Shown here piece by piece: positions 1,030-23,932 of a stretch of 64,000 nt of DNA. The translations under genes and the position numbers were made by a program. This stretch comes from Sideroxydans lithotrophicus ES-1 (GTDB taxonomy: Bacteria > Pseudomonadota > Gammaproteobacteria > Burkholderiales > Gallionellaceae): the NCBI RefSeq assembly GCF_000025705.1, contig NC_013959.1:546001-610000 (forward strand), written 5' to 3'. Each line of letters starts with the position of its first letter. Positions within the stretch are counted from its first letter, which is position 1. The notes beneath the pieces are model-generated. The model ran no database searches. It saw only the letters and a program-made list of their open reading frames with translations, and had not been told where the DNA came from.

Positions 1030-2664
1030 ATGAACAAACTGTTAGGCTATTTTAGTCGGCATGATCGAGGCTGGGTGCTGTCGCTGATTGCAGCGGTATC
1101 CCTTATCTATTTTCCCTATCTGGGCAATCCCTTCTTCTTCGATGATGGGTATCTATTTACCGGCAATGTGATGTCGCACTATGCGCATTCGATGTTTCAT
1201 TTCGATCTGCGCTGGTTTTCATATGTCACGCTGGGGTGGACTGCAGCCCTGTTCAGCGATGTGGTGCCGCACTTCTATCATCTGGGCAATTTGCTGGTCC
1301 ATTCGGCGAATGCCATCCTGTTGTTCTACTTGTTGCGCCAGATCGTCGGCGCCGTGTCGCCTGATACCCATGATTCGCCGCAGCTTAAACGAGGCGCATG
1401 GGTTGCAGCCTTGCTTTTCGCACTGCATCCGGTGGCAGTTTATGCCGTGGGCTATGTAGTACAGCGCAGCATCCTGATGGCCACGCTGTTTGTGTTGCTG
1501 ATGCAGCTGGCATATCTAAGAGGATTGATGAATGGCCAGGTGCGTTGGCTGGGGCTGTCAGTATTGTGCTACTTCCTGGCCGTATTTTCCAAAGAACACA
1601 GCGTGCTGGCCCCCGCCACACTGGCTGCGCTCACGCTTTTGCTTTGGCATGAGAATGCTGCTTCGAAACGTGCGCTCTGGTTGACGTGGGGGGCGTTCAT
1701 GGCGGTAGCCATATTGGTCACTTTGCGGGCGCGAGGGGTGCTTGGGGCTGCTTATGAGCCGATGGCCGCAGAGTTGTTCGAGCAGCAAGGCGTGGTGGCC
1801 AGTACCCCGATGTTGCACCTGCTGAGCGCGTTGACGCAGATGGGGTTGTTCTTCAAATACCTATTGTTGTGGTTATTGCCAAATGTATCGTGGATGTCGG
1901 TGGATATGCGCGAACCCTTCGTTGCTGCACTGTCGGATTGGCGTGGCTGGCTGGGGCTGCTTGCGTTTACAGCCTATGGCGCGGTTGCATTCAAGCTGTT
2001 GCTGCGCGGGGGAATGAAAGGCTTGATCGGCTTTGCACTGCTGTACCCATGGATGCAATTCGGAGTGGAGCTCGCCGGCATTCGTGTGCAGGAGCCTTTC
2101 GTCCTGTATCGCAGCTATCTTTGGATGCCTGGAATGCTGCTGCTGATTCCATTGCTGCTGCTGAAGTTTCCTCAACGTATCACACTGGTAACTCTTATCT
2201 GTGCGGCAATTCTCATGATTCCGCTGGCATGGAATCGCTTGTGGGTGTTCGGTGATGACTACCGTTTATGGAACGATGCTGTGTTGAAATTGAAAAATGA
2301 GCGGGTTGCGGGTGCCGATCGCATCTACTTCAACCGGGGACAGGCACTTATGAAGGCCAAGAAATGGGAGGCGGCTGCGAGCGATTTTGAGCGTTCGGCC
2401 GCGATCAGCCCACAACTGGCCCCGATACATCGGTATTTGGCAGATGCTTACAGCAACTCAGGGCAATACCAGAAAGCGTTGATTCAGTACGATCAAGCAA
2501 TTGACTTGAATCACCGCGATGCTGGCACTTATTTTGGCAAAGGAATGGTTTTGAAACGGTTGCACCGCAACGATGAGGCGCGGCAGCAGATGGTGCGCAG
2601 TTGCAATTTGGGCTATGCAGTCGCCTGCTTTCTGGTATCCACGCCGCAAATAGACAAGCATTAG
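1030..2664 (+). CDS. Polytopic membrane protein with C-terminal TPRs, GT-C glycosyltransferase-like
   Basis: This 544-residue protein begins at ATG 1030; an in-frame TTG lies directly before it. The N-terminal 410 residues contain about ten hydrophobic segments. The first periplasmic loop carries FFFDDGYLFTG, an acidic pair placed like the catalytic acidic motif of GT-C transferases (PMT, TMTC and Wzy/PglL-like enzymes). The C-terminal 110 residues form two to three tetratricopeptide repeats (for example YFNRGQALMKAKKWEAA and AYSNSGQYQKALIQYDQAI). The architecture resembles TMTC/O-mannosyltransferase-like TPR proteins often encoded directly after type IV pilin genes. I infer glycosylation of the cysteine-free pilin. 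No substrate can be read from sequence, and an assembly or scaffold role is possible. Confidence 0.65.
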   Translation: MNKLLGYFSRHDRGWVLSLIAAVSLIYFPYLGNPFFFDDGYLFTGNVMSHYAHSMFHFDLRWFSYVTLGWTAALFSDVVPHFYHLGNLLVHSANAILLFYLLRQIVGAVSPDTHDSPQLKRGAWVAALLFALHPVAVYAVGYVVQRSILMATLFVLLMQLAYLRGLMNGQVRWLGLSVLCYFLAVFSKEHSVLAPATLAALTLLLWHENAASKRALWLTWGAFMAVAILVTLRARGVLGAAYEPMAAELFEQQGVVASTPMLHLLSALTQMGLFFKYLLLWLLPNVSWMSVDMREPFVAALSDWRGWLGLLAFTAYGAVAFKLLLRGGMKGLIGFALLYPWMQFGVELAGIRVQEPFVLYRSYLWMPGMLLLIPLLLLKFPQRITLVTLICAAILMIPLAWNRLWVFGDDYRLWNDAVLKLKNERVAGADRIYFNRGQALMKAKKWEAAASDFERSAAISPQLAPIHRYLADAYSNSGQYQKALIQYDQAIDLNHRDAGTYFGKGMVLKRLHRNDEARQQMVRSCNLGYAVACFLVSTPQIDKH

Positions 2665-2725
2665 GGTTGTGTAAATTAAATTAATCAATCAGTTGCGTGT
2701 TTGCAAAATATTTTCAAAATATTCC

Positions 2726-2752
2726 TAAAGTTTTCAAAATCCCTGCCGATAC
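2726..2752 (+). promoter_or_regulatory. sigma-28 (FliA) promoter upstream of flhD
   Basis: TAAA at 2726-2729, 15 bases, then GCCGATAC at 2745-2752: seven of eight matches to the -10 consensus GCCGATAA, with perfect spacing and the extended TAAAGTTT -35. Transcription would start near 2759, about 205 bases before the flhD ATG. FliA is itself encoded in this window (24812-25555), so this promoter would make transcription of the flhD leader depend on late-class sigma factor. Confidence 0.8.
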
Positions 2753-2758
2753 ATCGTC

Positions 2759-2850
2759 TGTACGCGTCAGTGCGTCCCCTCGCAGTAGCTCGTACGACCA
2801 GAACCACCCCTGTTGCCATTAAGGTCGCCAGGGGTGGTTCTGTTTGTTTG
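2759..2850 (+). ncRNA. Candidate FliA-dependent small RNA / flhD leader RNA
   Basis: The span from the predicted sigma-28 start (about 2759) to the end of the hairpin terminator (about 2850) is about 90 nt and contains no credible ORF, which is the shape of a trans-acting small RNA gene. It contains GTCCCCTCGC at 2774-2783, exactly complementary to the flhD ribosome-binding region at 2951-2960, and an 8-base palindrome TCGTACGA further on. It could act as a free small RNA on flhD mRNA, or as the 5' end of a read-through leader that folds onto the start site. Its 5' end is predicted, not measured. No known RNA family is recognised. Confidence 0.55.
2774..2783 (+). promoter_or_regulatory. Anti-Shine-Dalgarno segment complementary to flhD start region
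   Basis: GTCCCCTCGC here is the exact reverse complement of GCGAGGGGAC at 2951-2960, which contains the flhD Shine-Dalgarno AGGGG and ends 4 bases before the ATG. Ten consecutive Watson-Crick pairs with seven or eight G-C would be stable. The match stops on both sides, so it is not part of a longer repeat. Confidence 0.6.
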
Positions 2851-2854
2851 TAGG
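2800..2854 (+). terminator. Strong hairpin with T-rich tail inside the flhD leader
   Basis: AGAACCACCCCTG (2800-2812) and CAGGGGTGGTTCT (2829-2841) form a perfect 13-bp stem with a 16-base loop, followed by GTTTGTTTGT. This has the form of an intrinsic terminator for the RNA starting near 2759. The tail is interrupted by G, so partial read-through into flhDC is conceivable and it may act as an attenuator. Confidence 0.75.
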
Positions 2855-2964
2855 TCATCTTCCTACAGGATAATCGGAAGTCATCGGATATTTTCCTTGG
2901 ATTGTCTCCCCGAGAATGCAACCGTCGTAACAAGACATCACAATGTTTAAGCGAGGGGACCGCC

Positions 2965-3285
2965 ATGAACACGAATCAAATGCATGAAGAAATCAAGGAA
3001 ACCAATCTTTCCTACATGTTGCTTGCGCAGCAAATGCTGCGCGACGACAAGGCCAGCGCGATCTTCCGTCTTGGCGTAAGCGAAGAGTTGGCTGACCTGA
3101 TCGTCGGTCTTTCTCCGGCGCAGATGCTCAAGATGGCAGCGTCGAACATGCTGCTGTGCCGTTTCCGCTTCGACGAGCGGCTGCTGCTCAACATGATCAC
3201 GGATTACAACAAGGACAGGATGATGTCGCAGGCGCATGCCGCTATCCTGATGTCGGGACAAGCCGCTGAGACAGTGGCGATCTGA
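2965..3285 (+). CDS. flhD: Flagellar transcriptional activator subunit FlhD
   Basis: FlhD is half of the FlhD4C2 master activator that switches on class II flagellar operons with sigma-70. The 106-residue product has the family's usual length and core (SYMLLAQQMLRDDKASAIFRLG, then PAQMLKMA). Cys65, the residue forming the dimer disulfide in E. coli FlhD, is at the same position. ATG 2965 is preferred because GAGGGG lies just before it; an in-frame start at 2902 lacks a ribosome site. flhC follows after 17 bases. The 300-base upstream region carries a sigma-28 promoter, a terminator hairpin and an anti-SD segment, plus a weak possible sigma-70 -10 (GATAAT near 2869-2874). Confidence 0.97.
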   Translation: MNTNQMHEEIKETNLSYMLLAQQMLRDDKASAIFRLGVSEELADLIVGLSPAQMLKMAASNMLLCRFRFDERLLLNMITDYNKDRMMSQAHAAILMSGQAAETVAI

Positions 3286-3302: not shown

Positions 3303-3845
3303 ATGCGAAACAAGAGCGTAGTGAACGAAGCGCGCGAGATACAGATCGCGGTCGAACTCATAGAGCTGGGGGCTCGCTTGCAGTTGTTGCAAGAGGAGAC
3401 GGGGTTGAGCCGGGAGCGTTTGCTGCGCCTGTACAAGGAGGTCAAAGGAGAGTCACCATCCAAGGGCATGCTGCCTTATTCGACCGACTGGTTCATGAGC
3501 TGGCTGCCGAATATCCATTCATCGTTATTCATGGGTATTCATCAATACCTGCTGAAAAACGCCAATGTGTCCGGTGTCGAAGCGCTGATCAAAAGTTATC
3601 GTTTGTATATCGAGCAAGTAGCGGTGACTACAGGCGAGCCGACGCTGAGCATCACCAGGGCCTGGTTCCTGATCCGTTTCTTCGATGCGAAGATGCTGCA
3701 ATTGACTGAATGCAAAGAGTGCGGCGGGCATTTTGTCGTGCACACGAACGAGCTTTGCGCAAGTTACAGTTGCGGCATTTGCCGTCCTCCCTCGCGTGCG
3801 GGAAAAACGAAAAAAGCCGCCCAGGCCGAAGCAGCAATCGCCTAA
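3303..3845 (+). CDS. flhC: Flagellar transcriptional activator subunit FlhC
   Basis: FlhC is the DNA-contacting, zinc-binding partner of FlhD. The product is 180 residues. Cys137, Cys140, Cys157 and Cys160 stand exactly where the four zinc ligands of E. coli FlhC are, and an extra Cys occurs at 152. The N-terminal helices (REIQIAVELIELGARLQLLQEE) and the TDWFMSW segment are typical. A GGAGATCGCC stretch precedes the ATG. The TAA stop (3843-3845) forms part of the -35 element of the sigma-28 promoter for motA. Confidence 0.97.
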   Translation: MRNKSVVNEAREIQIAVELIELGARLQLLQEETGLSRERLLRLYKEVKGESPSKGMLPYSTDWFMSWLPNIHSSLFMGIHQYLLKNANVSGVEALIKSYRLYIEQVAVTTGEPTLSITRAWFLIRFFDAKMLQLTECKECGGHFVVHTNELCASYSCGICRPPSRAGKTKKAAQAEAAIA

Positions 3846-22619: not shown

Positions 22620-23932
22620 ACGCTAGAAAATTCATCGCGGCCAGTTCGCGCGAGGCATTGAAGCTGGTACGTATCGAACTCGGCGAGGATGCCGTGATCC
22701 TCTCGAATCGCAAGGTGCCGGAGGGGGTGGAGATCGTGGCTGTAGCCGGTTCCGAACTGGCGCATCTGAGCGAGACGCGCGTGAGCGGCGAGGTTGCCCC
22801 GAAACAGCAGGGTGCGCAGCGGGTTCCTGTTCCTGAAGGGAATACAAGTGCAACAAAGCTGCAGCCACGTTCAGGCAGGCTGACCGCGCAGGCTGAGAAC
22901 CAGGCTGCCGCACTGGGTGCGAAGATACTGGAAGCGAACAGCAGCCGCGAGGCTGTCGCTGTGCCCGGGGCCAGGGATGCGAATGCGGAACAGAAAATCC
23001 TGCTATCCGAGATCAAATCCATGCGCAACCTGATGCAGGAGCAACTGGCACGGCTGTCCTGGTCGGATATGCAGCAGCGCGATCCGGCGCGCGGCGGGCT
23101 GCTGCGTGACATGCTCAATGCCGGCTTCAGCCCGATGTTGTCGCGCCAGCTATTGGAAAAGATCCCCGCCGATGGCGGACTCGACTGGCTGCGCCGCATA
23201 CTTGGCCACAACCTGCGTGTGGCGACAGTGCAGGAGGATGTGGTGGCGCGCGGCGGCGTGTATGCGCTGGTCGGTCCCACCGGCGTCGGCAAGACCACCA
23301 CCACCGCCAAGATGGCGGCGCGTGCCGTGGTGCGCTACGGAGCAGACAAGGTGGCACTGGTCACCACCGACAGCTACCGTATCGGTGCGCATGAACAACT
23401 GAAAATCTACGGCAAGATACTTGGCGTATCGGTGCATGCGGTGCGCGATACGGAAGACTTGAAGCTCACCCTGTCGGGACTGAAGCACAAACATCTGGTG
23501 CTGATCGACACCATGGGTGTCGGGCAGCGCGATAGCCGCGTGGCCGAGCAGGCACAGATGTTCGATACCGTGGGCGTGCAGCGTCTGCTGTTGCTGAATG
23601 CGACCAGCTCCGGCGGCACGCTGGAAGACGTGGTCAAGATGTATGGCGGTACGGGCGTGATCGGCTGTATCCCGACCAAGCTGGACGAGGCGGTGACGCT
23701 GGGTACGGTGCTGGATGTGGTGGTGCGGCACAAACTGACCATGCACTATGTGGCAAGTGGGCAGCGCGTGCCGGAAGACCTGCACGAAGTGAACCTGGAA
23801 TACCTGCTGCACCGCGTGTTCAAGGATGTCGGCAAGAGCAGCGCGGCATTCGCCATGCAGGAAACGGAATTGCCGGCCTTCATGGCCGGGATCGGCAGCG
23901 CCCAGGCCATGAGGGGACAATATGCGCTCTAA
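22616..23932 (+). CDS. flhF: Flagellar placement GTPase FlhF
   Basis: FlhF is an SRP-type GTPase that determines polar flagellar position. The 438-residue product has an N-terminal B domain (MNARKFIAASSREALKLVRIELGEDAVILSNRK), a variable linker, and an NG domain with P-loop GPTGVGKTTTTAKMA (about 221-235), TTDSYRIGAHEQLKIYG, LIDTMGVGQRD and TKLDEA. The start overlaps the flhA stop by 4 bases and the end overlaps flhG by 11. Its presence with FlhG indicates polar, number-controlled flagellation. Confidence 0.95.
   Translation: MNARKFIAASSREALKLVRIELGEDAVILSNRKVPEGVEIVAVAGSELAHLSETRVSGEVAPKQQGAQRVPVPEGNTSATKLQPRSGRLTAQAENQAAALGAKILEANSSREAVAVPGARDANAEQKILLSEIKSMRNLMQEQLARLSWSDMQQRDPARGGLLRDMLNAGFSPMLSRQLLEKIPADGGLDWLRRILGHNLRVATVQEDVVARGGVYALVGPTGVGKTTTTAKMAARAVVRYGADKVALVTTDSYRIGAHEQLKIYGKILGVSVHAVRDTEDLKLTLSGLKHKHLVLIDTMGVGQRDSRVAEQAQMFDTVGVQRLLLLNATSSGGTLEDVVKMYGGTGVIGCIPTKLDEAVTLGTVLDVVVRHKLTMHYVASGQRVPEDLHEVNLEYLLHRVFKDVGKSSAAFAMQETELPAFMAGIGSAQAMRGQYAL

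Follow-up and report, generated by a model that had tools for sequence, protein, structure and literature searches.

A predicted FliA-dependent small RNA gene adjoining flhD in the Gallionellaceae

The leader of flhD in the 64 kb stretch of Sideroxydans lithotrophicus ES-1 DNA analysed here (the window) contains a segment, GTCCCCTCGC (2774–2783), that was predicted from the letters alone to be the exact reverse complement of GCGAGGGGAC (2951–2960), in which the flhD Shine–Dalgarno sequence lies; the complementarity is borne out, and the ten-mer occurs at these two sites alone in the window (0.13 expected). The flhD start codon follows at 2965–2967. The original prediction offered two readings, a small RNA that blocks flhD translation when FliA is active or a long-range fold of the leader that hides the start site. 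By itself the ten-base match is suggestive and not decisive, and the case presented below is carried by comparative evidence, not by the chance figure of the match.

Anatomy of the flhD leader

The region that follows a FliA-type promoter and ends in a T-rich tract has the appearance of a small RNA gene in its own right, about 90 nt long and situated upstream of flhD (Table 1). Folding of positions 2757–2856 (100 nt) gives −46.7 kcal/mol (z = −6.3), an energy as low as which was reached by none of 200 shuffles. The CCCC of the first loop is unpaired with a probability of 1.00 in the RNA of the window, compared with 0.38 for the flhD Shine–Dalgarno sequence, and the fold in silico has an exposed seed complementary to the ribosome-binding site of the target, as in Shine–Dalgarno-blocking small RNAs. 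Such RNAs also possess an intrinsic terminator, which is recognized here by eye and by folding, a simple terminator scan of the same interval reporting only a shorter stem. Among relatives, the seed is followed in 61/64 cases by a hairpin of at least eight pairs and a T-rich tail, compared with 24/64 and 26/64 in two controls, values which make this comparative criterion a loose one. A search of positions 2600–3000 against Rfam gave no relevant match, the two microRNA hits being far under the gathering score (16.5 against 90 bits and 16 against 80 bits).

Table 1. Features of the flhD leader and the adjoining genes, in window positions
Feature	Positions	Strand	Basis
FliA (sigma-28) promoter, TAAAGTTT-N11-GCCGATAC	2726–2752	+	15/16 consensus positions
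Predicted FliA-dependent small RNA, ~90 nt, exact ends inferred	2757–2849	+	Fold; counterparts in relatives
Hairpin 1, apical loop UCCCCU bearing the seed	2760–2795	+	Folds; pair counts in relatives
Seed (anti-Shine–Dalgarno), GTCCCCTCGC	2774–2783	+	Exact complement of 2951–2960
Intrinsic terminator, 14-bp perfect stem CAGAACCACCCCTG / CAGGGGTGGTTCTG, then TTTGTTT (to 2849)	2799–2842	+	By eye, folded
Inverted repeat TGTAGG-N7-CCTACA, where a regulator of the flhDC promoter may bind	2849–2867		Conserved
Block ATGCAACCGTCG, which may belong to the promoter or the start region of flhDC	2916–2927	+	Conserved
Predicted target, flhD Shine–Dalgarno region GCGAGGGGAC	2951–2960	+	Complementarity; best-site overlap in relatives
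flhD	2965–3285	+	Pfam FlhD, E = 2e-44
flhC	3303–3845	+	Pfam FlhC, E = 2e-87

The promoter was scored against what we take to be the FliA consensus. It is one of three sites without a mismatch to TAAAGTTT-N11-GCCGATA in the 3.0 Mb genome, in which ten sites with at most two mismatches are found, compared with six in the reversed control; some of the ten presumably precede flgK, flgM, flagellin and motA, as which the downstream frames were read by eye. A zero-mismatch FliA promoter at G000:C1:2344665-2344690 (L185) lies before an open frame of 72 amino acids. At the sequence level, the locus has the layout of sigma-28-dependent small RNAs, with a FliA-type promoter immediately before the predicted short untranslated RNA.

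Between the terminator and flhD lie an inverted repeat, the half-sites of which we take to resemble those of EvgA, BvgA and similar response regulators of the NarL/LuxR type, and a block 49 nt before flhD. A loose form of the repeat is present in 97/115 leaders (58/64 with and 39/51 without the small RNA) and the block, with up to three mismatches, in 98/115 (60/64 with and 38/51 without), both counts being made without a chance control; in 62 of these 98 leaders the block lies 45–50 nt before the ATG. Since both elements are kept with and without the small RNA, they suggest that flhDC has a promoter of its own downstream of the terminator.

Occurrence and conservation in the Gallionellaceae

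FlhD was found in 111 of the 158 genomes of the family of the window, the Gallionellaceae. Picks from the FlhD matches in this family (80 places) and loci from searches (61 named) gave 118 non-redundant leaders, those identical over the last 200 nt and 60 nt of flhD being counted once and L094 being dropped as too short; 115 of the 118, drawn mainly from the same family, were kept at an FlhD identity of at least 60%. A hairpin with a C-rich seed lies upstream of flhD in 64 of the 115, including leaders with diverged seeds (L014, L018, L056, L064 and L065). The pairing tests excluded five leaders that have a FliA promoter and no recognizable seed (L059, L115, L117, L153 and L158). The carriers include Sideroxydans, Sideroxyarcus, Gallionella, Ferriphaselus and Candidatus Nitrotoga; the predicted gene adjoins flhD in iron- and nitrite-oxidizing bacteria of one family.

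A composite pattern of a FliA promoter and CCCCTYGC matched 47 times in 45 of the 158 family genomes and not at all in the reversed control, and every one of the 47 lies on the flhD strand, 236–393 nt before that gene. The pattern occurred in none of 386 genomes of the order outside the family, a search in which so strict a pattern would miss diverged forms; across 399 genomes of the order it occurred in five, all of them among the 13 drawn from the family of the window. No FlhD relative was found on viral contigs and no match to the leader on plasmids. A tree of 116 flhD genes requires at least 15 changes in the presence of the small RNA. Tandem copies lie upstream of flhD in three genomes (L056, L062 and L096), and each copy has a FliA promoter to itself. 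In L096 the first of the copies resembles a single hairpin that doubles as a terminator.

A FliA promoter matching at least 13 of 16 positions accompanies 58 of the 64 seed-bearing leaders and is absent from six, which were chosen by hand and then had to match the seed pattern. These six (L018, L019, L021, L022, L024 and L048) keep the hairpin, with no FliA promoter seen in the 450 nt next to flhD, and their small RNA may be transcribed from a different promoter. By eye, a TTGA-like hexamer and TACAAT are seen about 15–16 nt apart in L021, L022, L024 and L048, and a sigma-70 promoter scan of L021, L048 and L019 confirmed a promoter in none of the three.

RNAalifold returned no pairs at all from a MAFFT alignment of 45 rows, a result taken as misalignment of divergent stems, and alignments of each clade anchored on the seed were used after it. 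In the Sideroxydans type (15 of 24 RNAs) the seed is without variation in all 15 rows, 92.1% of the cells of the 11 pairs of hairpin 1 are paired and six of the 11 pairs show two-sided changes, as many as which occur in 3 of 500 shuffles, counts that lean towards this hairpin because the 16 sequences from which its structure was derived include the 15 rows. The covariation score of 0.414 (0.279 in shuffles) is above those of all 500 shuffles and of all slid versions, and the count of further pair types is unremarkable (reached in 53 of 500 shuffles). As judged from these rows, the stem of the Sideroxydans-type hairpin is maintained as the sequence diverges. In the Nitrotoga type (ten sequences) 12 pairs hold, and two of these have changed on both sides. 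The 17 sequences of the Gallionella type support four inner pairs alone, at −0.11 kcal/mol, and single folds give longer stems.

Pairing of the seed with flhD and other messages

Over the 64 leaders, the duplexes between each RNA and its own flhD message average −20.55 kcal/mol compared with −17.8 kcal/mol for permuted partners (p = 5e-5, a value that ignores kinship), and the own mRNA is matched or beaten by 36% of the other mRNAs on average. Permutation within clades gives p = 0.008 for the Sideroxydans type (n = 24), 0.16 for the Nitrotoga type (n = 18) and 0.0002 for the Gallionella type (n = 22). The Sideroxydans RNA pairs at −23.9 with the mRNAs of its own clade and at −18.7 with those of Nitrotoga, and the Nitrotoga RNA at −22.5 with its own and at −18.9 with those of Sideroxydans, the seed and the Shine–Dalgarno sequence differing together between these two clades. 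The longest exact run is 9–12 bp in 20/24 Sideroxydans-type and 9–15 bp in 14/18 Nitrotoga-type leaders, and shorter in the rest; within −110 to +150, the best site for the loop overlaps the Shine–Dalgarno sequence in 23/24 and 17/18, respectively. The base that follows CCCCT in the seed (C or T) agrees with its partner before AGGGG (G or A) in 48 of 50 scored leaders; 19 of 69 leaders were unscored, among which L089, L090, L162 and L163 would by reading count against the agreement. The agreement amounts to two changes of this base on the tree.

The Gallionella clade behaves differently. The original prediction had named free variation of one segment beside conservation of the other as evidence against it, and this is partly what is seen in this clade, in which the seed is conserved and the longest exact run is only 4–8 bp in 22/22 leaders. 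The best loop site overlaps the Shine–Dalgarno sequence in 13/22 and lies off it in the other nine, and the RNA fits the mRNAs of the other clades better (−17.7) than its own (−12.7). This weak fit to flhD is the main problem for a reading in terms of repression. Elsewhere, L023 and L115 keep GCGAGGGGAC and have no seed; GGGG is present in the Shine–Dalgarno region in 59/64 leaders with the small RNA and in 28/52 without it, and a comparison of the presence of the RNA with the Shine–Dalgarno type over independent pairs is in the expected direction and not significant (median p 0.5), the comparison being underpowered. In co-folds, the flhD Shine–Dalgarno sequence is in a duplex in only 8 of 13 representatives. 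The existence of the small RNA gene is much firmer than its repression of flhD, which is nevertheless, as a feedback brake in which the FliA-dependent RNA acts on flhD translation, the best explanation of the locus and probably the correct one.

The persistence of the seed in Gallionella despite the short flhD match is what might be expected if the C-rich loop were a general anti-Shine–Dalgarno element with its main targets elsewhere, flhD being one of several or an incidental partner on account of its G-rich site. Among 391 gene starts in 464 kb of the genome of the window, located with a simple open-frame caller and taking the best of several starts, the second-best start reaches −24.3, close to the −26.6 of flhD; against this, flhD ranks first of the 391 (mean −11.7, s.d. 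3.5). It also outpairs flhC in 42 of the 45 loci, out of 64, with a readable flhC (mean −22.3 versus −12.6), and the best loop site falls on the Shine–Dalgarno sequence of flhC, used as a control, in only 12 of the 45. The pattern CGAGGGGA-N3-10-ATG occurs at six sites in the genome including flhD, compared with two in the reversed control; three of the others precede open frames of at least 92 amino acids, none of them flagellar by eye, and two lead to frames of five codons. In 20 Gallionella genomes the one other-target pattern tried is found at 33 places in 14 genomes with no recognized recurring gene start, a similar stretch recurring in five genomes. Together with the position of every composite match beside flhD, these observations make it rather unlikely that the main targets lie elsewhere.

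The start region of flhG in the window (23911–23918) contains GAGGGGAC, which is the complement of eight seed bases. Thirty flhG loci were fetched, of which one is that of the window and one reads N; GAGGGGAC is absent from the other 28 readable loci, in several of which the start is uncertain and was placed by alignment, and flhG was consequently rejected as a conserved second target. The flhG start windows of two relatives reach −26.0 and −25.8 with the loop of the window through another pairing, their starts likewise being uncertain and placed by alignment only. An internal TAG is present in the flhG frame of G161, G164, G167 and G169, which form one genus group and at least two of which match Candidatus Nitrotoga.

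The second reading of the original prediction, in which the FliA transcript reads through the terminator and the seed hides the Shine–Dalgarno sequence in cis to leave the flhDC message silent, is unlikely. The seed and its target do share a strand, with fewer than 200 nt between them, and a 270-nt read-through RNA folds in this way in silico (−92.2 kcal/mol, z = −4.3); however, the 14-bp stem and T-rich tail, which by the loose criterion have counterparts in most relatives, separate the two segments, and downstream of them lies the conserved promoter-like block, which is also kept in most leaders without the small RNA. In the three genomes with tandem copies, moreover, the second copy lies further upstream under its own FliA promoter. 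The small-RNA branch of the prediction is thus strengthened by the FliA promoter, the seed in a loop, the terminator-like hairpin, conservation, the tandem copies and the joint differences between clades, whereas leader folding is disfavoured on account of the hairpin between the segments and the block beyond it. Folding in cis could still apply to read-through transcripts; as the seed would silence these, it is unlikely that FlhDC is synthesized from the FliA promoter.

A chance match of a C-rich loop to a G-rich Shine–Dalgarno sequence is more frequent than the original estimate of order 10^-4, which was too optimistic (20 of 5000 dinucleotide-preserving shuffles of the leader, 2665–2944, match the start region from −22 to +3 over at least ten bases, so that about 4 in 1000 is fairer), but is very improbable as the explanation given that the complementarity recurs with different letters in separate clades, beside flhD.

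A proposed feedback and its relation to known systems

The promoter, hairpin, terminator-like stem, complementarity, conservation and adjacency to flhD are properties of the DNA itself; from them we infer an RNA that is made, pairs in the cell and represses. In the proposed brake on flhD, FliA, the late flagellar sigma factor, would transcribe the small RNA, the first hairpin of which would expose UCCCCU so that GUCCCCUCGC could pair with the Shine–Dalgarno sequence of flhD. With this sequence covered, ribosomes would not start on flhD and less FlhD4C2 would be formed. Hfq, a gene for which is present in the genome of the window, might aid the pairing, although this is a guess. In the known flagellar hierarchy FlhDC switches on fliA, and the small RNA would therefore close a negative feedback from the late tier to the master regulator.

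Across the family, the locus can be read as a dedicated RNA beside flhDC through which FliA would directly stop translation of the master regulator and limit flagellar gene expression to a pulse timed by completion of the hook, with tandem duplication in some lineages, exchange of the FliA promoter for another in one and loss in many; this wider reading is favoured with some reserve. If it is true that a late-class RNA is aimed at the top gene, a very short loop would connect the end of the hierarchy to its start, and FlhDC is predicted to come as a pulse and not at a constant level. The lost, duplicated and re-promoted forms of the locus are natural variants for the comparison of seed with target. 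The shut-off of flagella is stated, for Escherichia coli, to be less studied than their onset (PMC10578931).

Both halves of the proposed arrangement have counterparts. The small RNAs ArcZ, OmrA, OmrB and OxyS are presumably encoded away from flhD, unlike the RNA of the window. In E. coli these four and the antisense RNA AsflhD repress flhDC by base pairing (PMC10578931), and the four are also listed as flhDC repressors in a 2026 review (PMC13432727). AsflhD differs from the RNA of the window in being antisense to flhD (PMC10578931), and the portions of these two papers drawn on here attribute the transcription of none of the five to the flagellar sigma factor (PMC10578931, PMC13432727).

The sigma-28-dependent small RNAs of E. 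coli, UhpU, MotR, FliX and FlgO, resemble the RNA of the window in being made by the late sigma factor and acting on flagella synthesis (PMC10578931). UhpU acts on lrhA, the product of which represses transcription of flhDC; the genes on which MotR and FliX act are middle and late ones (PMC10578931). All four are derived from untranslated regions, whereas the RNA of the window has its own promoter beside flhD and a seed that fits the flhD Shine–Dalgarno sequence; unlike the RNA proposed here, none is described as binding flhD mRNA in the part of that paper used (PMC10578931). In Campylobacter jejuni, FlmR (CJnc170), alongside which a further small RNA, FlmE, is reported, is FliA-dependent like the proposed RNA, and its overexpression shortens flagella and lowers motility (PMC11187230); the organism and the hierarchy differ, and the portion of the report consulted names no flhDC target (PMC11187230). 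No account of this RNA was found in a search of open-licence papers, nor of any small RNA that depends on FliA and acts on flhD. Each half of the arrangement is known, and, as far as has been seen, the combination of the two in a single gene next to the target is new.
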